The notes beneath the pieces were generated by a model that was not told where the DNA came from, did no database searches, and worked only from the letters and a program-made list of their open reading frames with translations. A DNA stretch of 18,060 nucleotides from assembly GCA_947306035.1 (NCBI GenBank), contig CAMZFG010000003.1, forward strand, positions 1 to 18,060, written 5' to 3'. The DNA is from an uncultured Clostridia bacterium (GTDB lineage Bacteria; Bacillota; Clostridia; Oscillospirales; CAG-272). This document shows, piece by piece, positions 7,874-17,789 of the stretch (its first letter is position 1; each line of letters begins with the position of its first letter). The position numbers and the translations under genes are program-made.

Positions 7874-7953
7874 GAGGTTTTTGAATTTTTTTGTTTTTGC
7901 GTCTTTTTTGCATGATGCGCCCCCCCTTTGCGCTTTCCGGAACGGATGCGGTG

Positions 7954-7977
7954 CTATTCCGCGGCGCGCCGGAATAG
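7954..7977. repeat. Short inverted repeat upstream of the flippase gene
   Basis: CTATTCCG (7954-7961) and CGGAATAG (7970-7977) form a perfect 8-bp inverted repeat around an 8-nt GC-rich centre. It ends 19 nt before the flippase start codon and just before its ribosome site. It could be an operator or an RNA hairpin in the leader. No clear plus-strand promoter was seen between 7874 and 7953. Function unknown. Confidence 0.5.
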
Positions 7978-7996
7978 AGTGTGGAGAGGTGAAGAT

Positions 7997-9613
7997 ATGA
8001 AAAGCAAACAGACCTTTTTTTATAACGCCCTGCTGATGACCGCCGTCACGCTGCTGATGCGCACGGTGGCCGTCAGTTTCAACGTCTATCTCTCTTCAAA
8101 AGCGGGCGCGGAAGCCATGGGGCTTTTGTCGCTCGTCGGCAGTGTGTACGGCTTTGCGCTGACGCTGGCGACTTCCGGCATCCATTTAGCCACGGTGCGC
8201 ACCGTCTCGGAACACATGGAAAAAACGGGCGGCGCCGACACCCGCCGCTGTCTGCTCGCCTGCCTTGGCTACGCCGCCGCGTTCGGCACGCTCGCCTCGG
8301 TCGCGCTGTTTGCCTTTGCCCGCCCCATCGGGCTGTATCTGCTCTCGGACGCGCGCACGGTCGCGGGCCTGCGCGTGCTGGCCTTCACGCTGCTGCCCAT
8401 CGCGCTGACGACCGTTCTCAACGGCTATTTCACCGCGGTACGCCGCGCTTTCAAAAACGCGATGGCGCAGGTGACGGAACAGGCCGTCAAGATCGCGTTG
8501 ACCGTTTTTCTGCTGCTCTCGGTCATGCCCGACACGGTCGAAGGCAGTCTTCTGGCCATTCTCACGGGCGGCGCCGCCGCGGAGTCGCTGTCCCTTGTGT
8601 TCAACCTGATCCTGTACGCGGCCGACAGGCGCCGCCACCCGCCGCAAACGCCGCCCGAAAACCGCAAAAAAAGCGACGTTCCCATACGGGTCGCGGCCGT
8701 TGCCTTGCCGGTCGCCGTCAGCGCGTATATGCGGTCAGGTTTACTCGCAATAGAACATATTTTAATTCCAAAAGGACTTTCGGCCTATAATCACGGTTCT
8801 TCCACGGCGCTCGCTTCGTACGGCGCGCTGCACGGCATGGCCCTGCCGGTGGTGCTGTATCCGGCCGCCATCCTCTCCGCTTTTGCGGCGCTGCTGATAC
8901 CGGAGATCACCCGTGAAAACGCCGCCGAAAACCGCCGCGAGATCAGCTACATCACCGGGCGCGTTTATCAGATGACCATGCTCTTTTCCATGGGCACGGC
9001 GGCGATCATGCTCTTTCTTTCGGGCGAGTTCGGCACGGTGCTGTACGGCAACGACGAGGTCTCGTTTTTCATACGCCGCCTGGCGCCCCTGATCCCCGTC
9101 ATGTATCTCGATACCGCCACCGACGCGCTCCTGAAAGGCATGGGTCAGCAGGTCTACTCCATGAACGTCAATATCTTCGACGCGTTCTGCTCCGTGCTCG
9201 GCGTGTGGCTGCTGGTGCCCCGTTTCGGCATTGCGGGATACCTCGCGACGATCTGGTTCACCGAGATCCTCAACGCAGCCTTGAGCGTCAGCCGCCTTCT
9301 GCGCATCAGCGGCTACCGCCCGCAGCCGGTGCGGCTCCTGCTGCTCCCCCTCTTGTCCGCCGTCGGTTCCGCGGCGCTGTGCCGCCTTTTGTGCGCGTTT
9401 TTCCCCCGCGCTTTCGGCAGTCCCCTGACGCTGACGCTGCACGTCGCGATCCTGCTGGCGCTGTATCTGCTGCTGGCCCTGCTGACAGGCGCGCTGCCCC
9501 GCCGCGATCTCGGCTGGCTGTTCGCCTCGCTCAAACCGGCGCGGCGCGCGGCGCCCGCGCAAAAGCACGCACGCGAGCGCTCGGAAGAGAGCGTAAAAGT
9601 TAAAAGTGTGTAA
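7997..9613 (+). CDS. SpoVB/MurJ-type oligosaccharide (lipid II) flippase, MOP superfamily
   Basis: A 538-aa multi-pass membrane protein with a dozen or more hydrophobic segments spread over its length. It resembles SpoVB and related polysaccharide transporters that move lipid-linked sugars across the membrane. Supporting features are the opening [44 protein letters not shown] segment (about residues 7-45), [23 protein letters not shown] near residues 288-310 as in SpoVB (LP..L.P), and [13 protein letters not shown] near 380 (LxGxGxQ). The C-terminus is a basic Arg/Lys-rich cytoplasmic tail. The ATG at 7997 was chosen because GGAGAGG precedes it; an upstream open extension has no ribosome site. 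Whether it serves peptidoglycan, sporulation or exopolysaccharide cannot be decided from sequence. No terminator is visible after it. Confidence 0.85.
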
Positions 9614-9629
9614 CATTTTCGATTTTGTC

Positions 9630-9658
9630 TTGAAATTTGTGGTAAAGTGTTGTAAAAT
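9630..9658 (+). promoter_or_regulatory. Sigma-A promoter of pckG
   Basis: TTGAAA (9630-9635), a 17-nt spacer, and TAAAAT (9653-9658). The predicted start is near 9665, giving a leader of about 45 nt with no obvious regulatory RNA. It begins 16 nt after the flippase stop codon. Confidence 0.82.
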
Positions 9659-9692
9659 GGCGTATGGGCACAGAGTGCAACCGCCACATCAC

Positions 9693-9700
9693 AAGAGGAG
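9693..9700 (+). promoter_or_regulatory. Ribosome binding site deciding the pckG start
   Basis: AAGAGGAG ends directly against an in-frame ATG at 9701, too close for initiation, but lies 9 nt from the next ATG at 9710. The second ATG is therefore taken as the start. Confidence 0.85.
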
Positions 9701-9709
9701 ATGCAAGTT

Positions 9710-11503
9710 ATGACCAACAACAAATTCGTTTTGTCCTGGATCGACGAAATGGCCGCCATGACCAAACCCGACAAGATCGTCTGGATCGACGGCACCGAAG
9801 AACAAGCCGAGGCGCTGCGGCGCGAGGCCTGCTCGACCGGCGAACTGATCAAATTGAACGAAGAACTTTTGCCGAACTGCTATCTGCACCGCACCGCCGT
9901 CAACGACGTGGCCCGCGTGGAAGGCAGAACGTTTATCTGCACGCCGACCAAAGAAGAGGCCGGCAATATCAACAACTGGGTCGAGCCCGGCGAAATGTAC
10001 GCCAAACTCAAAAAACTCTACACCGGCTCCATGAAAGGCCGCACCATGTACGTCATTCCCTATTCCATGGGCGTCGTCGGCTCCGACTTTGCCAAGATCG
10101 GCATTGAACTGACCGACTCGATCTACGTGGTGCTGAATATGCTCATCATGACCCGCGTGGGCCAAAACGTGATGGATTCCCTCGGCGACAGCCCCGACTT
10201 TATCAAGGGCCTGCACTCCAAAGCCACCCTCGACGCCGACAACCGCTATATCACCCACTTCCCGCAGGATAACACCATCATGTCGGTCAACTCCGGCTAC
10301 GGCGGCAACGTGCTGCTCGGCAAAAAGTGCTTTGCCCTGCGCATCGCCTCCTACCTCGGCCGCAAAGAGGGCTGGATGGCCGAGCACATGCTGATCCTCG
10401 GTCTCGAGTACCCGAACGGCGACATCAAGTATATCACCGCCGCCTTCCCCTCTGCCTGCGGCAAGACCAACCTCGCCATGCTGATCCCGCCCGAGATCTT
10501 CAAGAAGAAGGGCTATAAGGTGTGGACGGTGGGCGACGACATCGCCTGGCTGCGCGTCAACAAAGAGGACGGCCGCCTGTACGCCGTCAACCCCGAAAAC
10601 GGCTTTTTCGGCGTGGCGCCCGGCACCAACGAAAAATCCAACCCCAACGCGCTTGCCACCACGCGGCGCGACACCATTTTCACCAACGTCTGCTACAACG
10701 CCCGCACCAACACCGTCTGGTGGGAGGGGCTTGACAACAATCCTCCGAAGCCCGAAGACGGCGCCGTCAACTGGAAGGGCGAGCCCTGGGATTACCGCAG
10801 CTACGACAAAGCCGACAAGATCAACACCTCGGGCGCGCATCCCAACTCCCGCTTTACCACCATGGCCAAAAACTGCCCGTGCCTGTCCGCCGAGTTCAAC
10901 TCGCTGAAGGGCGTGCCTGTGACCGCCATCATCTTCGGCGGCCGTCGCGCCAAAACCGCGCCGCTGGTCTACCAGTCCTTCGGCTGGCAGCACGGCACGT
11001 TCGTCGGCTCCATTATGGCTTCCGAGACCACGGCCGCCGCGGCCGGCGCCATCGGCGTGGTGCGCCGCGACCCCATGGCCATGCGTCCCTTCGTGGGCTA
11101 CAACATGGGCGACTACTGGCAGCACTGGCTCGATATGGGCCACGTCATCAAAAACAAGCCCCTCATCTTCCACGTCAACTGGTTCCGCACCGACGACAAG
11201 GGCAACTTCATCTGGCCCGGCTTCGGCGACAATATGCGCGTGCTGCTCTGGATCCTGGCCCGCTGCGCCGGCGAGGTAGACGCGGTCAAGACGCCCATCG
11301 GTTACGTGCCGAAACCCGAAGACATCAATATCGAGGGCCTGCGCGGCATCACGACGGAGACCATGAAGAACCTGCTCTCCGTGGACGTGGAGTCCTGGAA
11401 GGCCGACATTGCCAACATCAAAGAGTTCTACAATCAGGTCGGGGACCACGTGCCCGCCGAAATGTGGCAGGAACTGGCCGCTCTGGAAAAGAGACTGGGC
11501 TGA
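9710..11503 (+). CDS. pckG: Phosphoenolpyruvate carboxykinase (GTP-dependent)
   Basis: A 597-aa cytosolic enzyme interconverting oxaloacetate + GTP and PEP + CO2 + GDP. It is clearly the GTP family: SGYGGNVLLGKKCFALRIAS at about residues 195-214, the P-loop FPSACGKTN at 246-254 (with the reactive-Cys loop typical of GTP-PEPCK), VGDDIAWL at 274-281 (Mn2+ ligand Asp), NPENGFFGVAPGTN at 294-307, and FGGRRAKTAPLVYQ further on. Many Firmicutes carry the unrelated ATP type (pckA), so this is a useful lineage marker. In fermenters it may work in the CO2-fixing direction; that is inference. It has its own promoter and terminator and appears to be a single-gene unit. Length is typical and no key residue is missing. 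Confidence 0.96.
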   Translation: MTNNKFVLSWIDEMAAMTKPDKIVWIDGTEEQAEALRREACSTGELIKLNEELLPNCYLHRTAVNDVARVEGRTFICTPTKEEAGNINNWVEPGEMYAKLKKLYTGSMKGRTMYVIPYSMGVVGSDFAKIGIELTDSIYVVLNMLIMTRVGQNVMDSLGDSPDFIKGLHSKATLDADNRYITHFPQDNTIMSVNSGYGGNVLLGKKCFALRIASYLGRKEGWMAEHMLILGLEYPNGDIKYITAAFPSACGKTNLAMLIPPEIFKKKGYKVWTVGDDIAWLRVNKEDGRLYAVNPENGFFGVAPGTNEKSNPNALATTRRDTIFTNVCYNARTNTVWWEGLDNNPPKPEDGAVNWKGEPWDYRSYDKADKINTSGAHPNSRFTTMAKNCPCLSAEFNSLKGVPVTAIIFGGRRAKTAPLVYQSFGWQHGTFVGSIMASETTAAAAGAIGVVRRDPMAMRPFVGYNMGDYWQHWLDMGHVIKNKPLIFHVNWFRTDDKGNFIWPGFGDNMRVLLWILARCAGEVDAVKTPIGYVPKPEDINIEGLRGITTETMKNLLSVDVESWKADIANIKEFYNQVGDHVPAEMWQELAALEKRLG

Positions 11504-11579: not shown

Positions 11580-11608
11580 TTGACAAGAACGATCCGATTG
11601 TGTATAAT
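11580..11608 (+). promoter_or_regulatory. Perfect consensus sigma-A promoter of the matrix-protein operon
   Basis: TTGACA (11580-11585), a 17-nt spacer, and TATAAT (11603-11608): full consensus at every position. Transcription should start near 11615, leaving a leader of about 170 nt before the first start codon. A constitutively strong promoter fits control by premature termination in the leader rather than at initiation. Confidence 0.95.
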
Positions 11609-11644
11609 GACTATGTATAAAGGCGTTTCCCTGTAAATTGCATA

Positions 11645-11715
11645 TTTGAAATGGGCAAAATTGTGGTAACACAATGACGCAAAACTAAAGGGGCTTACGA
11701 GCCAGCCAGTTGCAT
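11645..11715 (+). promoter_or_regulatory. Class-I cyclic-di-GMP riboswitch aptamer (GEMM-I)
   Basis: The conserved GEMM-I core is present in order. GGGCAAA is at 11653-11659. A perfect 6-bp hairpin ATTGTG/CACAAT (11660-11665 and 11670-11675) is closed by the GNRA tetraloop GTAA. The invariant GACGCAAA is at 11676-11683. A second arm pairs AACT (11683-11686) with AGTT (11708-11711) and contains the inner hairpin GGCT-TACG-AGCC (11692-11703). The closing GTTGC ends at 11713. By alignment with the Vibrio Vc2 aptamer, G11654 and C11713 correspond to the ligand-contacting G20 and C92, and the GTAA loop to the docking tetraloop. Known members bind c-di-GMP. It lies between a consensus promoter and a terminator, as expected for a transcriptional switch. 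Confidence 0.93.
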
Positions 11716-11755
11716 GATCGTCCGCGTATCGCGGTCATCGTCAACTGGCTTTTTT
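11704..11755 (+). terminator. Riboswitch expression platform: intrinsic terminator overlapping the aptamer
   Basis: AGCCAGTTG (11704-11712) pairs with CAACTGGCT (11742-11750). Inside it ATGA (11714-11717) pairs with TCAT (11735-11738), and CCGCG (11722-11726) with CGCGG (11730-11734). Six T follow (11750-11755). The 5' arm includes the aptamer's AGTT strand at 11708-11711, so aptamer and terminator cannot form together. A ligand-stabilised aptamer should therefore block termination: an ON switch by structure (inference). Confidence 0.93.
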
Positions 11756-11786
11756 GATAAAATTCACGAAAGGAGGCGGACTTTTG

Positions 11787-12611
11787 ATGCAGCACCGCAC
11801 AGCGATACCCCGCGTTTTGATAAAAGCCGGCCTGCTTTTGCTGCTTTCCGCCCTGCTGCTGACCTCGGCGACGTACGCCTGGCTGCGCGTGGGCTTCGTG
11901 ACCCCGGACAGCGAACTTTCCTTCACCACCGGCAAACTGACCCCGCCCGCCGCCAAAATGTGGATCTATACAGAAGAGGAAGAAAACGAGAACCTGGCCG
12001 ACGAGAATCGCTGGGTCGAACTCAGCGTGACCACCGACGGCAGCGCGAATATCGCGCCGGGCGCCGAGCGTTCCGGGCCGGTCGACGGCAAATATACCTT
12101 TACCCTGACTTCTCTGCACCTCGGCACCGTTGACAACCTGATCCTTCTCGGCGACGACAACTACGCGTATCTGCGTGTGCCGATCGACCCGGTGGCCCTC
12201 GGCAACGGCGTTACCATCACGCTGGAACTCAAAGAGACCGACGGCATCGAACTGTACGACTCGACCGGCGCGCCCGTGACCGACGAAACGACGGGCGAGA
12301 CCCCCAGAACGCCGCTGGCAGACCTTTATGACATCAACGAAACGATGCCGCTGCTGCTGATCGATTACGCCATCAACAAGACCGCCTACACGCCCTACAC
12401 CATGACCGACGCGCTCAAAGAGAGTTTTGCCACCGTCGAACCCGACACGACCTACACCGCGCCGGACGAGGATCCCTACTATATTTATCTGCGCGTACAC
12501 CCCAACCTGGCCGCCTTTATGGAAGCCACCCGGTTTTTGTACGAATACATGCCCTGCACGCTGCTTTACAGTCTTGACATTTCCGTCATGATCTACGAAA
12601 CGGCGGTATAA
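11787..12611 (+). CDS. Secreted protein with SipW/TasA-type signal segment, first gene of c-di-GMP-controlled operon
   Basis: A 274-aa protein I do not recognise as a named family. An N-terminal basic stretch (QHRTAIPRVLIK) and hydrophobic helix (residues 15-29) end in TYAWL (29-33), followed by a Ser/Thr-rich segment ending TTGKL (47-51). This is the TYAWF...GxL layout seen after the signal of TasA/camelysin-type proteins exported through SipW. The rest looks beta-rich, acidic and extracellular; GKYTFTLTSLHLGTVDNLILLGDDNYAYLRVPI (101-133) resembles the beta-sandwich of that group. There is no sortase motif or C-terminal membrane helix. The ATG at 11787 has AAAGGAGG at 11769-11776. A TTG at 11754, within the terminator T-run, was rejected as the start. 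The leader carries the c-di-GMP riboswitch. Likely a matrix or pilus-like subunit or an assembly factor. Confidence 0.8.
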   Translation: MQHRTAIPRVLIKAGLLLLLSALLLTSATYAWLRVGFVTPDSELSFTTGKLTPPAAKMWIYTEEEENENLADENRWVELSVTTDGSANIAPGAERSGPVDGKYTFTLTSLHLGTVDNLILLGDDNYAYLRVPIDPVALGNGVTITLELKETDGIELYDSTGAPVTDETTGETPRTPLADLYDINETMPLLLIDYAINKTAYTPYTMTDALKESFATVEPDTTYTAPDEDPYYIYLRVHPNLAAFMEATRFLYEYMPCTLLYSLDISVMIYETAV

Positions 12612-12646
12612 CGCGACCCGAACGAAACTTTGAAAGGAGAAAACGC

Positions 12647-15600
12647 ATGAGGAACGCACCGAAAAAAGCGCATCGTTTCAAAACCGTATGGCTGACGGCC
12701 CTTATCATCGTGGTCATGCTGACCATTGTGGCGGCTTCGACGGCGGTCTATGCCTATTTCTCCACCCGCGTTTACGTTTACACGTCGGACGGCGATCGTC
12801 AGGTCGCCAAACTCGGCATGCGGCTGAACCTGCTGTTCGACCGCATCGTGCCCTACAACGAAAATCACGCCACGCACGACGGCGAAGTGACGGCCGGCAC
12901 CTCGCTCGGCATTATCAAATCCATCGACGAAGAGGGCAACGTCACCTATTACGAATACGACCCCACGGCGGAATGGGGCACGGCTGAAAACCCCTACCTC
13001 ATTTCGGAGGTGCGCCACCTGCACAACCTTTCCGCCCTGCAGAGCATCGGCTATTTTGAAGACCTTTACATCAAATATAACTACGAAAACGAGGACGTGA
13101 ACGGCACCTATCTCGAAACCGCCGTTATGCCCTACTTTTTGGTGTGCGATTCGGACGGCACGCCCGCCACGGTCGACGGCACCGGCTTTACCATTTCTCC
13201 CATCGGCACCGACGAATACCCCTTTATCGGCTACGTGGGCGGCGCGTTTGCCGAGGGCACCACGACCGTGGGCGGCCTTGACAGCAACACCTCCGCCATT
13301 TACAACCTGCAAGTCACGGCCAGAGACGACCGCGTCGATGTGGGACTTTTCGGCACCATCGGCTACCTCGGCACCGAGCCCGATGAAAACGCGGTCGACC
13401 AGACCTTTGTCGGCGCGGTCTCCATCATCCGCGACCTGCTGCTCTATGACGTGCAGGTCAAAGTGACCGACCACACCTGGGTCGAAGACCTGACCCACCG
13501 CTTTATGCACGACGCCGGCGACAACGACGTTTCGCACGAGAACCACCACATCGGCATTCTGGTCGGACACGTGGAATACGCCTCGATCGAGTACATCAGC
13601 GTGTATTACAGCAGCGACGACATCGCAGCCATCGATCTTTCTCACACCACGGCGGGCAGCACCTCTTCCACCACGCCGAACTACCTCTCCTCGTCCGGCA
13701 TTCTCGGTTTTATCTACAATCTGAACCCCAACCTTGTCATTGACGAAAACGGCGCTTACAACGTGGCGGCCTCTTCGGGCAAATCCTCGGAGTACGTGCA
13801 CGCCATCGGCGCCGGCAACGACTGGGGCGGCAGCGTGGATATGTATAAAATGTACAACACGCTGACCGACGTCTATAACTCCGGCGACGCGCACGTGGTG
13901 CAATACCCTTCCGCCAAGACCGTCACCATCGACCGCGAGGGCAACCGGACGGAAACGATCACCGCCCACTCCAACGTGACCGTCAATCTGAACGGCAACA
14001 ACCGCACGCTGACCGGCATTGCCTGGGACGAAGACGCGACCGCCTCGTACGTGTTCGGCACGCGCGCGACCGGCGACGGCTTCCGCTACCTGTACGGGCA
14101 AAAAGAGTTTGCGCTGACGCAAACCGTGACGACCGTCACCTATACCGACGAGGACGCCTCCGTCATTTCCGACGGGCAGGGCCACTACCTGAACCTTTCA
14201 AACGGTGCGCTTGCCGTCGGCAACAGCGCCGAGACCGCCACCAAATGGCGCTTCGGCACAGGCAACACCAAGACCATTTACACGCAGGTGGGCGACAACG
14301 TCTATTACCTGCGCAGCAACAGCAACACGCTGACCGTCACGACCACCGCCGGTTCCGCCACCGCCTGGACTTTCAGCAACAACAGGATCAGTTACAACAA
14401 CTACTACCTCACCTACAACAACGGCGGGTGGACGCTTTCCAATATCACCTCCTATTATCTCATTCATGACGGCAACGGGCATTACCTCAACGCCGCCGCC
14501 AACGACTTTTCGACCGGCACGGTGGAAAGCGAAGCCACCAAATGGACGTTCAGCGCCCCCAACGGCAGCGGCACCATTTCGACAAAGATCGGCAACACCA
14601 CCTACTATCTGCGCAACTACAACAACGGCACCCTGCAGGTCTCCTCGACCACCTCGACCAACTGGACCAGCAGTGCGAACGCCATTTACAACGGCGACTA
14701 CTACCTGGCCATTGACAGCAACAACAACTGGGGGCTGACCACCAACGACAGCGGCACGCTGATCGGCGACGGCAACGGCAACTACCTTTCCCTGCCTTCT
14801 GCCACGCCTGCCAACGGTGCGGCCGTGGGCAACGCAGACAACGCGGGAGAAGCCACCATCTGGACGATCGCCAATACCGGCGTGATCTATACGCATTCCG
14901 GCAACTATTATTACTATTTGCGCAACAACGGCGGTTCTCTGGTTTTGTACCGCAGCAACTCGCTGAACACGAGTTCAAACAACAACCGTACCCAATGGAC
15001 CGTCGCAAACGGCAGGATTTCGAACAATAACTATTATATTGTTTCAAACAACGGCTCTTGGAGTTTATCTACTCTGCCAACCCCCACCTATTATCTCATC
15101 CATGACGGCAACGGGAATTATCTGAGCGGTAGCGCCACCAACGCCGCGCCTACCAACGCCACCGAATCCACGGCGGCTCTTTGGTCGCAAGCCAACGACG
15201 GTCGCTTGTCTTTGCAAAGCAACACTTCGTACTCCCTGATGTACTACTATTACAGATGGGGCGGCGGTGCGCAGTATATCTACATTGCCAACGGCAACCA
15301 ACGCGCTTACTACCATTATAACAACGGTTACCTCAGCGCCACGTATAACAACACGACTTACTACGCGCGTTTCAACAACAACGCCTGGACTTACACGACC
15401 AACCAGGCGCAGGCAACGCCCATCACGATGACGGAAGTCTCGCCGACGGTCGATCTGACCCTGATCGACAAAAGCACGGTCGTCTCCACCACGGTGCAGC
15501 ACGCGCAGCACAACTACGACTACACGCTGACGCTGACGGACGCTACCTTTGAAAACTGGAAGACCAGCGAGACGCACAACGAGAACATCACCTACACCTC

Positions 15601-16999
15601 CGACCCCACGGTGTACCCGCTGGCCCTTAACGACGACGGCAGCGTGATGCGCAACAAGAACACCGGCTACGTCGTCGGCGGCGTGGACTACGTTTACAGC
15701 GGTTCCGGCAGTACGTATCCCGGCGATATCCGCGTTTCGCAGTACGCCATGAACAACATCAGCGTGGCTCTCGGCGGCAACTCATCTTACAACCCCGCCA
15801 AACTGGAGATCATCACCCGCACGGCCACGTCGGGCGGCTATGCGCTGATCCGTGACGAGAGCGGCTATAACAACGCCAACAGCGTGGCCAGCGGCTACGG
15901 CGACATTCCCTCGGACACGCGCAGCAACCGCCGGCTCGCCTCGGATCTGGGCCTGAAAAAGTACACCAGCGCCCGCGATCAGCTGGAAGATCTCTTTAAC
16001 CCCGAAAACGCCAACGGCGTGCGGGTCGCCAGTTCCAACATTTACGGTCTGCACTTCATGAACCTGACCACGAACACCAGCATCGGCGACAACACGCACC
16101 GCATCACCGTGCCGACGGCGTGGATCAACGGCACCCGCTACACCGATTACGTCATGCCGACCGACTGCATCGACTTCAACCTCATGCAGCGCGGTTCCAT
16201 CAACTTCTTTGCCGGTTCCTACTTTATCAGCGGCAACCAGTCGAACGACACGTTCTTCGCCCTTTATAAAGTGGTGCGCGGCAACGACGGCTCTCTGCAA
16301 TCGGTCATCGAGATCGAACAGGTCTACGGCAATCCCACCAACGATCTGGCGCCCGTCTATTACAAACTTTCCGGTCTGTCCGGCTATACCACCGACGGCA
16401 AGACGTTTTTGACGAACGATCAATGGAACGCTCTGCCCTCCACCTCCAAAACGCTGCTGTTCGATATGGACTGGGTCACCATGAGCAACGGCAACACCAT
16501 GGTCAACAACGCGGTGTATTACTTTGAGATCCCCGTCAACGAGGGCGAGTACGCCCTGGGATCCGTGACCGGCAACAAGACCGGCGCTTACCTGATGTAT
16601 CTGGATATCGGCGCCAGCGACACGGCCATCTCCTACCGCGACGGCGCGGCGGGTTCGGCGCTCGGCACCATCGACTACGTCTATCACAACAGCGGCGACG
16701 TCATCACCGTCACCACCGTGCCCGACGTGCTGCCCCAGAACGAAGACTATCAGTACTACTACGCCTCGCTGTGTATGATGGGGTCGCAAAACGACTACCA
16801 GGAGCAGCCCGGCGACCCGTTCTTCAACATCAATCAGGCCAAGATCTACGTGCGGCGAACGATCGACGCCGTGGACGACAGCAACATACCCGTCATGCAC
16901 TTTGATATCCGGTGTGCCGACGAAAAGTATTTCCGCACCGTGCCCTACTCCGCGCTGGCCGACCCCATCGTGCGTACCGACGGCGCCTATTCCCCTTGA
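12647..16999 (+). CDS. Very large secreted repeat protein, putative c-di-GMP-regulated matrix/adhesin
   Basis: A 1450-aa protein without a family name I can give. Residues 11-34 are a hydrophobic export segment ending in VYAYF (34-38), the same signature as its two neighbours. Residues about 108-260 contain WGTAENPYLIS (110-120), a PIG...PFIG stretch and VGLFGTIG (232-239), a pattern seen in GLUG-type beta-helix surface proteins. Residues 506-921 hold four tandem units keyed by DGxGxYL. Residues 922-1450 are beta-rich and unassigned. Composition is rich in Asn, Tyr, Thr and Ser with very few Cys. There is no LPXTG, no C-terminal membrane helix and no S-layer homology motif, so it is either released or held by the N-terminal segment. 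AAAGGAG at 12633-12639 supports the ATG. It lies 35 nt after the first gene and 36 nt before the third. Confidence 0.82.
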   Translation: MRNAPKKAHRFKTVWLTALIIVVMLTIVAASTAVYAYFSTRVYVYTSDGDRQVAKLGMRLNLLFDRIVPYNENHATHDGEVTAGTSLGIIKSIDEEGNVTYYEYDPTAEWGTAENPYLISEVRHLHNLSALQSIGYFEDLYIKYNYENEDVNGTYLETAVMPYFLVCDSDGTPATVDGTGFTISPIGTDEYPFIGYVGGAFAEGTTTVGGLDSNTSAIYNLQVTARDDRVDVGLFGTIGYLGTEPDENAVDQTFVGAVSIIRDLLLYDVQVKVTDHTWVEDLTHRFMHDAGDNDVSHENHHIGILVGHVEYASIEYISVYYSSDDIAAIDLSHTTAGSTSSTTPNYLSSSGILGFIYNLNPNLVIDENGAYNVAASSGKSSEYVHAIGAGNDWGGSVDMYKMYNTLTDVYNSGDAHVVQYPSAKTVTIDREGNRTETITAHSNVTVNLNGNNRTLTGIAWDEDATASYVFGTRATGDGFRYLYGQKEFALTQTVTTVTYTDEDASVISDGQGHYLNLSNGALAVGNSAETATKWRFGTGNTKTIYTQVGDNVYYLRSNSNTLTVTTTAGSATAWTFSNNRISYNNYYLTYNNGGWTLSNITSYYLIHDGNGHYLNAAANDFSTGTVESEATKWTFSAPNGSGTISTKIGNTTYYLRNYNNGTLQVSSTTSTNWTSSANAIYNGDYYLAIDSNNNWGLTTNDSGTLIGDGNGNYLSLPSATPANGAAVGNADNAGEATIWTIANTGVIYTHSGNYYYYLRNNGGSLVLYRSNSLNTSSNNNRTQWTVANGRISNNNYYIVSNNGSWSLSTLPTPTYYLIHDGNGNYLSGSATNAAPTNATESTAALWSQANDGRLSLQSNTSYSLMYYYYRWGGGAQYIYIANGNQRAYYHYNNGYLSATYNNTTYYARFNNNAWTYTTNQAQATPITMTEVSPTVDLTLIDKSTVVSTTVQHAQHNYDYTLTLTDATFENWKTSETHNENITYTSDPTVYPLALNDDGSVMRNKNTGYVVGGVDYVYSGSGSTYPGDIRVSQYAMNNISVALGGNSSYNPAKLEIITRTATSGGYALIRDESGYNNANSVASGYGDIPSDTRSNRRLASDLGLKKYTSARDQLEDLFNPENANGVRVASSNIYGLHFMNLTTNTSIGDNTHRITVPTAWINGTRYTDYVMPTDCIDFNLMQRGSINFFAGSYFISGNQSNDTFFALYKVVRGNDGSLQSVIEIEQVYGNPTNDLAPVYYKLSGLSGYTTDGKTFLTNDQWNALPSTSKTLLFDMDWVTMSNGNTMVNNAVYYFEIPVNEGEYALGSVTGNKTGAYLMYLDIGASDTAISYRDGAAGSALGTIDYVYHNSGDVITVTTVPDVLPQNEDYQYYYASLCMMGSQNDYQEQPGDPFFNINQAKIYVRRTIDAVDDSNIPVMHFDIRCADEKYFRTVPYSALADPIVRTDGAYSP
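14162..15409 (+). repeat. Four tandem ~100-aa coding repeats in the large surface protein
   Basis: Units start at residues 506, 603, 703 and 815 (DNA 14162, 14453, 14753, 15089). The DGxGxYL key aspartates are at 509, 608, 708 and 820, so spacing is 99, 100 and 112. Units 1-3 each hold three sub-modules of a YL/YYL strand followed by a Trp strand: GHYLN..TKWRF, VYYLR..TAWTF and NYYLT..GGWTL in unit 1. Unit 4 is degenerate in the middle. Units 2 and 4 open with the same YYLIHDGNG at near-identical DNA, suggesting recent duplication. Unit 2 (98 residues, 603-700) has 15 Asn and 9 Tyr. A threefold beta fold, such as a trefoil-like carbohydrate-binding module, is possible but unproven. Confidence 0.88.
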
Positions 17000-17035
17000 T
17001 CTTCTCTTAAATCTTAACGAAAGGAGCGCCCCGTC

Positions 17036-17737
17036 ATGGACAAAGAGCGCGTCAAGCAAATACTCAAAACGCCCCATCTTCTCGTCTCCGGCCTGACCAT
17101 TCTGGGGCTCTCCGTTCTGTTCGTCATGATCCTGATGATCTACAACAATCCCGCCTACGCCTGGTTTTCCCGCAATTTCAACACGGACAGCGGCGGCATG
17201 GGCATCGGCACGGGGCAAAGCGCCGCCGTATTCAAATATGCCGAGCCTTCCGGCAACGGTTGGGGGGCCGATACGACGTTCGTCACAAACGGCACGGCCG
17301 ATCTTACCAAATGCCTGAACAAACCCGGCGACACCTATACCTTCCGGCTGACCGTGACCAACACGGGCGAGCAGGATATTCCCTTTACCAAACTCGGGCT
17401 CGTCACGCCGAAAGCGGGCGACGAAGTGCCCGTCACCGACGACGAGGACGTCGACCATTACCTCGGCACGCAGATCTACGTCAAGGTGCTCAACGTCAAC
17501 GGCACGCCCGTGGCCGATCCCCCTGCCGTCTATCTGCTGACGCTGTCGGCGGGCGAACCCGTTTTTGAGGACAAAGTGCTGTATACCTTCGGCTCCGAGC
17601 AAACGCTGCGGCCGGGCAATTCCATGAATTTCGTGCTGGAATTCACCTTTGAAAACCTCAACGAGCCGCAGGACGTTTTTCAGGATTTCGGCGTTTCCAA
17701 CGACGGCGTGTGCAAACGGGCGTTTCTGATCGAGTGA
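17036..17737 (+). CDS. TasA/camelysin-like secreted protein, third gene of c-di-GMP-controlled operon
   Basis: A 233-aa protein. After a cytoplasmic basic stretch (KERVKQILKTPH), a hydrophobic helix at residues 15-36 runs into NPAYAWFSRNF (38-48), the YAWF signature of SipW-dependent TasA/CalY proteins. A Gly-rich linker follows. The mature part carries LNKPGDTYTFRLTVTNTG (94-111) and LRPGNSMNFVLEFTF (191-205), the paired 'PGD...F.v.n.G' and 'l.PG' strands of TasA-type beta sandwiches. It is acidic overall, with a DDEDVD patch at 135-140. Whether the helix is cleaved or kept as an anchor cannot be told. AAAGGAG at 17020-17026 precedes the ATG. It is the last gene before the shared terminator, and probably a fibre subunit or anchor for the 1450-aa protein. 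Confidence 0.8.
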   Translation: MDKERVKQILKTPHLLVSGLTILGLSVLFVMILMIYNNPAYAWFSRNFNTDSGGMGIGTGQSAAVFKYAEPSGNGWGADTTFVTNGTADLTKCLNKPGDTYTFRLTVTNTGEQDIPFTKLGLVTPKAGDEVPVTDDEDVDHYLGTQIYVKVLNVNGTPVADPPAVYLLTLSAGEPVFEDKVLYTFGSEQTLRPGNSMNFVLEFTFENLNEPQDVFQDFGVSNDGVCKRAFLIE

Positions 17738-17750
17738 CCGCACGCAAAAC

Positions 17751-17778
17751 AAAAAGGCAGTCTTTCGACTGCCTTTTT
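17751..17778. terminator. Bidirectional intrinsic terminator between matrix operon and rplS
   Basis: A perfect 12-bp stem (AAAAAGGCAGTC, TTTC loop, GACTGCCTTTTT) flanked by A-runs on the left and T-runs on the right, so it works on both strands. It closes the plus-strand operon and the minus-strand rplS transcript, whose stop codon is 11 nt away. Confidence 0.94.
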
Positions 17779-17789
17779 GCTTGGAAAAC

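Follow-up and report, generated by a model that had tools for sequence, protein, structure and literature searches.

Organization of the operon

The DNA analyzed here, referred to as the window, is a single contig of 18,060 nucleotides (nt) (CAMZFG010000003.1, assembly GCA_947306035.1) from an uncultured Clostridia bacterium of the Oscillospirales lineage CAG-272, the source assembly being incomplete (1.22 Mb in 224 contigs, 70% complete). It contains an operon in which a riboswitch of the cyclic di-GMP (c-di-GMP) class known as c-di-GMP-I or GEMM-I precedes three genes for secreted proteins, the second of which encodes a giant protein. The operon is probably activated by c-di-GMP and dedicated to an extracellular protein structure. 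Its parts are as follows.

11580..11608, + strand: sigma-70-type promoter, TTGACA-17-TATAAT, 12/12 consensus match
11644..11717, + strand: c-di-GMP-I (GEMM-I) riboswitch aptamer, RF01051, 60.5 bits, E 6.7e-10, gathering score 35
11704..11755, + strand: intrinsic terminator overlapping the aptamer 3' strand, AGCCAGTTG/CAACTGGCT, T run 11750-11755 (pairing scan and fold, ends read from the sequence)
11787..12611, + strand: P0003, 274-residue secreted protein, signal end TYAWL
12647..16999, + strand: P0001, 1,450-residue giant secreted protein, signal end VYAYF
17036..17737, + strand: P0002, 233-residue TasA/camelysin-family protein, signal end AYAWF, PF12389 at 24.8 bits (cut-off 22.5)
17750..17779, strand undirected: symmetrical hairpin terminator closing the operon, fold -20.5 kcal/mol, z = -5.1

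The three genes are spaced 35 nt and then 36 nt apart, and by eye each is preceded by a ribosome site, AGGAGG or AGGAG. The promoter is one of nine promoter-like sites in the region, where 3.1 would be expected, and the remaining eight score 9/12. An earlier account made from the letters of the window (the sequence-only reading) had described a consensus promoter, a GEMM-I aptamer overlapping a terminator, three closely spaced co-directional genes with strong ribosome sites, signals ending in YAWL, YAYF, and YAWF, and a shared final terminator; all of these were recovered, the aptamer as a covariance match, the overlap in a pairing scan, and the signal ends in the translations.

Recurrence of the riboswitch-headed layout

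Relatives of the giant protein were sought in a first survey of 147 genomes, the source genome included, and 10 of them have one; the 20 other listed genomes of the same genus have none. In the gene maps, 8 of these 10 genomes have a GEMM-I in the same direction upstream of the giant gene. The GEMM-I of genome G130 lies 3.7 kb from the giant gene with four genes between, G025 has none upstream of the giant gene in the stretch scanned, and the contig of G100 begins just ahead of the small gene. A second survey, of named genome contigs, yielded 52 giant loci, 44 of which have the 5' end of the giant gene present; their titles include Clostridia, Lachnospiraceae, Ruminococcus, Erysipelotrichaceae, Bacilli, and others, and many come from rumen or other gut samples. 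The surveys overlap in six of the 52 loci, which also belong to the relatives set (L091, L090, L094, L095, L096, and L098).

A covariance model based on 30 sites detected a same-strand GEMM-I within 3 kb upstream of the giant gene in 30 of the 44 loci, compared with about 0.1 expected by chance (a hand estimate with rounded sizes, based on 118 matches, including one below the cut-off, across about 92 Mb). Among the 35 loci with at least 3 kb of upstream sequence, 23 have a GEMM-I. The spacing is regular, with 25 of the 30 sites lying 798 to 1,238 nt upstream of the giant gene (930 nt in the window), and in 24 of these 25 loci one co-directional gene of 240 to 400 residues intervenes, for which an AWF-type signal was flagged in 20. 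Genes were called by a simple script, which in GC-rich loci sometimes chose an antisense frame (e.g., L004). Rfam's own models recover 13 of 13 sites of our model in nine rechecked loci, two of them as the GGC variant. A similar riboswitch-headed layout, of the kind that the sequence-only reading suggested looking for in related genomes, recurs in these loci. The finding that this reading would have taken as a refutation, genes kept without the switch, applies in part: the other 14 of the 44 loci have the giant gene without a riboswitch within that distance and are considered below.

RF01051 was detected in 45 of 48 giant-carrying genomes versus 12 of 59 relatives, a contrast that is indicative only, as the two sets differ taxonomically; the former count covers 48 of the 52 loci, with L120, L127, L141, and L145 left out. 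In a tree of the C-terminal domain of the giant (49 rows, the window plus 48 of the 52 loci, with L130, L137, L159, and L165 left out and the bootstrap not settled), loci with the switch are spread over deep, taxonomically mixed branches, and therefore the switch and the genes appear to have been retained or transferred together across long divergence. The switch label is hardly clustered on this tree (14 changes versus a shuffled mean of 16.3, with 79 of 500 shuffles as low). Near the giant-protein locus L097, three matches to Gut-1 RNA (RF01706) occur at L097:909-3265.

A predicted ON switch in the leader

In a pairing scan, the 5' arm of the leader terminator, AGCCAGTTG, begins 14 nt inside the 3' end of the aptamer and pairs with CAACTGGCT, which is followed by six T; the leader fold with the terminator formed has z = -3.5. 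A pattern scanner for terminators did not list this structure because its loop exceeds the length that the scanner allows. The membership in RF01051 thus comes with an expression platform coupled to the aptamer, the 5' arm of the terminator lying within the aptamer 3' strand. Of 69 GEMM-I sites, 46 have an overlap of aptamer and terminator above a threshold of our own; with the last 26 aptamer bases shuffled, the expected number is 5.35 (in this set the six loci common to both surveys are counted once and the model R1 sites in L103, L105, L114, and L115 are excluded). Because the aptamer and the terminator compete for one strand, the leader is predicted to be an ON switch for c-di-GMP, with transcription at high c-di-GMP. 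The same plan, in which aptamer and terminator are mutually exclusive, underlies the pilM ON switch (PMC9262584). At low c-di-GMP the leader terminator would form and transcription would end approximately 30 nt ahead of the first start codon, whereas at high c-di-GMP the aptamer would close, its 3' strand would be unavailable to the terminator, and the three genes would be transcribed.

The ligand may not be the same in every branch. In 17 of the 69 sites (one site unread), A replaces the G that precedes GCA, a base that we take to be equivalent to position G20 of Vc2; the site of the window is not among them. Many of the A-type sites belong to Bacilli or Erysipelotrichaceae loci, examples being L004:2628-2704, L130:6982, L134:6918, L142:6848, L146:6958, L159:46, L161:6891, L164:48, and L165:5531. 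A G20A change makes the c-di-GMP-I aptamer class bind cyclic GMP-AMP (cGAMP) (PMC6274999). The A-type aptamers in the Bacilli branch may accordingly sense cGAMP, in which case the ligand of the module may have changed in evolution.

The secreted proteins and the SipW-like peptidase

The sequence-only reading had taken all three products for TasA/SipW-type proteins. Judged by motif, the signals of P0003, P0001, and P0002 all look SipW-type; membership in the TasA family is found by Pfam for P0002 alone, P0003 and the giant failing by sequence, so that to speak of three TasA-like proteins is an overstatement. In the P0002 family, PF12389 (Peptidase_M73/TasA) is matched by five of six members, P0002 included, at E up to 1. 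P0003 gave no match to PF12389 at E up to 1, the 27 proteins of its family alignment included, and comparison of the P0003 and P0002 families by hhalign gave 2.5%, with no sequence link to TasA. Its predicted structure is of low confidence, and TasA is not among the 50 matches listed, which excludes nothing. Sequence searches of the PDB with the P0003 and P0002 families found nothing at E values of 10 or below. Relatives of P0003 are encoded by the gene immediately before the giant gene in L117, L119, L120, and L163 (30, 35, 23, and 28% identity, respectively).

The giant, P0001, can be divided by reading into an N-terminal domain (residues ~110 to 410), variable repeats (~485 to 940), and a C-terminal domain (~985 to 1325) that is widely shared. 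It matches no Pfam or NCBIfam family above cut-offs, and PF12389 was not matched at E up to 0.1 by any of the 14 members of the giant family scanned. PDB sequence matches to ribosomal uL18/L5 (E 0.0023, 38 positions) and to Hemolysin II (E 0.03 to 0.04) were weak and scattered and were treated as chance. The N-terminal domain looks by eye like a GLUG-type beta-helix, with no Pfam match in support. No LPXTG motif is present in P0001, whose C-terminal end is DGAYSP, or in the last 60 residues of any of the 52 related giants.

The genome encodes a single SipW-like match (TIGR02228, 93.7 bits versus a cut-off of 51.85; the Bacillus equivalog NF046067 scores 78.8, below its cut-off of 190). It is found on contig C172, outside the window, so that sipW is not part of the same operon, and it adjoins a gene for a DUF2357 protein. 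A home-made SipW profile matches 21 of the 52 related loci; in 12 of the 52, the giant gene has a match no more than 3 kb downstream. In genome G063, a separate GEMM-I precedes sipW itself (L094); judged by its gene map, L095 appears to have the same arrangement. In L093 (11450-12979 and 12999-14702) and L099 (8106-11905), SipW and AWF-signal genes occur together with genes for a membrane AAA ATPase and a DUF2357 protein, and the source genome has both as well (C181:65-1633 and C172). Among 86 mapped loci (six of them counted twice), 23 have a phmmer match to the ATPase and 24 to the DUF2357 protein; the AAA Pfam matches of the ATPase are below cut-offs. The pair represents possible assembly machinery.

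GEMM-I sites beyond the giant genes

The riboswitch search of the relatives listed 28 GEMM-I sites, 25 of them in mapped loci, and at 12 of these 25 the five co-directional genes that follow include one with an AWF signal, some neighboring sites sharing one operon. In the 18 riboswitch-picked loci, AWF was flagged in 15 of 62 open reading frames that come next after a site versus 0 of 90 other open reading frames, only frames of 150 residues or more being counted. Three GEMM-I were detected in the source genome, two of them ahead of operons with AWF signals and one ahead of a gene for a diguanylate cyclase: besides the one in the window, the second precedes an EAL-domain gene, a gene for a protein without a Pfam family, and an AWF-signal gene, and the third precedes a HAMP-GGDEF gene. 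The genome has five GGDEF matches in all. A GEMM-I also stands before a GGDEF gene in G025 (L092:7633-7707) and before an HD_5-domain gene in G021 (L101:8355-8437); feedback on c-di-GMP enzymes is a possible role for such sites. Paired GEMM-I aptamers, approximately 40 to 850 nt apart, precede AWF-signal operons in G038 and G054 (L087:17371-17561 and 9622-10503; L090:2633-3627).

It is tempting, if doubtful at present, to read these sites as a regulon under cyclic dinucleotides that serves a new system of surface assembly in uncultured Firmicutes of the gut. Riboswitches of the GEMM-I class would jointly switch on AWF-signal subunits, giants, enzymes that make or break c-di-GMP, and sipW (in L094, with L095 looking alike); the AAA/DUF2357 pair would be possible assembly machinery, and many aptamers of the Bacilli branch may respond to cGAMP.

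Proposed function and alternatives

In the explanation that we favor, the products of the c-di-GMP-activated operon would be exported and then trimmed by the SipW-like signal peptidase encoded elsewhere in the genome. P0002 would act as a subunit of the TasA/camelysin family, the giant P0001 as the principal component of the surface or matrix, and P0003 as the usual partner of the giant. The second-messenger-gated fiber or adhesin module proposed by the sequence-only reading agrees with the recurring riboswitch-headed operon, the SipW-type-looking signals, and the SipW-like peptidase; assembly into fibers or adhesins and a role in the sessile state are inferred. The same riboswitch control could instead serve separate secreted or membrane-tethered binding proteins, such as adhesins for carbohydrate or mucus, that do not polymerize, the AWF signal then marking the export route only. 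We consider this rather unlikely, since P0002 belongs to the TasA/camelysin family, whose member TasA polymerizes (PMC10151520), and since, with no LPXTG flagged, a soluble adhesin would need another tether.

The direction and the activity of the switch can also be questioned. Class I aptamers are also found in OFF switches, and the operon might be repressed by c-di-GMP. Cd1 of Clostridioides difficile is a class I OFF switch (PMC9262584). Such repression is very unlikely in view of the single strand contested by aptamer and terminator, both in the window and in the 46 of 69 sites; no separate antiterminator was noticed in the leader, although no search aimed at antiterminators was made. Fourteen related loci have no riboswitch within 3 kb upstream (six from Lachnospiraceae, counting Acetatifactor, three from Ruminococcus, three from "Clostridia," and two from Bacilli). 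This set counts L118, whose giant is split, as complete and switchless, and it includes L123 and L166, which have less than 2 kb of upstream sequence, and L153, which has a site 7.4 kb upstream. No alternative riboswitch above Rfam cut-offs was found in 8 of the 14, nor in L091, the twin of L120. These loci would fit a riboswitch that is genuine but defunct at the locus of the window, with constitutive transcription of the operon from its strong promoter. The high RF01051 score, the retained terminator overlap, and the spacing conserved in 25 of the 44 loci, across deep branches, make a defunct switch more improbable still than repression, and activation by c-di-GMP remains the preferred explanation.

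Comparison with known systems

The tapA-sipW-tasA operon of Bacillus subtilis and the sipW-calY1-calY2 operon of B. cereus share with the operon described here SipW-dependent export, a TasA/camelysin subunit, and an extracellular protein (PMC10151520). In contrast to these operons, a c-di-GMP-I riboswitch heads the operon here, sipW is located elsewhere, and the largest product has 1,450 residues and no Pfam family. The tapA-sipW-tasA operon of B. subtilis is controlled by SinR. The sipW-bsaABCRSD operon of Clostridium perfringens likewise encodes a clostridial SipW-dependent polymerizing matrix protein, with several putative secreted proteins per operon, and is controlled by a sensor kinase and a regulator; its description names riboswitch and c-di-GMP once each, in the reference list only (PMC7395162). 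Among riboswitches, Bc1 of B. thuringiensis (PMC11218506) and Cd1 of C. difficile (PMC9262584) have the same aptamer class and terminator-based switching; Bc1, however, precedes mcpE, Cd1 is an OFF switch, and neither is tied to SipW-type proteins in the part of the text cited. The pilM switch of Geobacter, also ON with mutually exclusive aptamer and terminator, differs in its cGAMP ligand and its operon (PMC9262584).

The sequence-only reading knew of no described system of this composition, and none combining a c-di-GMP riboswitch with a SipW/TasA-type operon was found in the literature on SipW, TasA, and c-di-GMP riboswitches searched by title and abstract opening, with subscription papers mostly outside the scope. 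The switch class and the secretion class are known; for their pairing no description was found, and the giant protein has no known family. The widespread "settle" signal c-di-GMP would here be linked directly through RNA to a surface system of the SipW/TasA type, and this RNA control contrasts with the protein-based control in both compared models, C. perfringens and B. subtilis. The surveys point to giant secreted proteins as a large family that has no Pfam entry, with many members from rumen and gut samples. If correct, the proposed function would offer a handle on attachment and matrix building by uncultured gut Firmicutes.

Flanking genes and other features of the window

Further Rfam matches in the window (MicX, BSnc120, STnc50, STnc320, and ALIL) were all below gathering scores and were set aside. 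The gene upstream of the operon encodes phosphoenolpyruvate carboxykinase, and a convergent frame downstream resembles by eye ribosomal protein L19. Positions 7928-9613 encode a 561-residue polysaccharide-export-like protein (PF01943) that resembles stage V sporulation protein B (TIGR02900, 217.6 bits, below the cut-off of 372.3).

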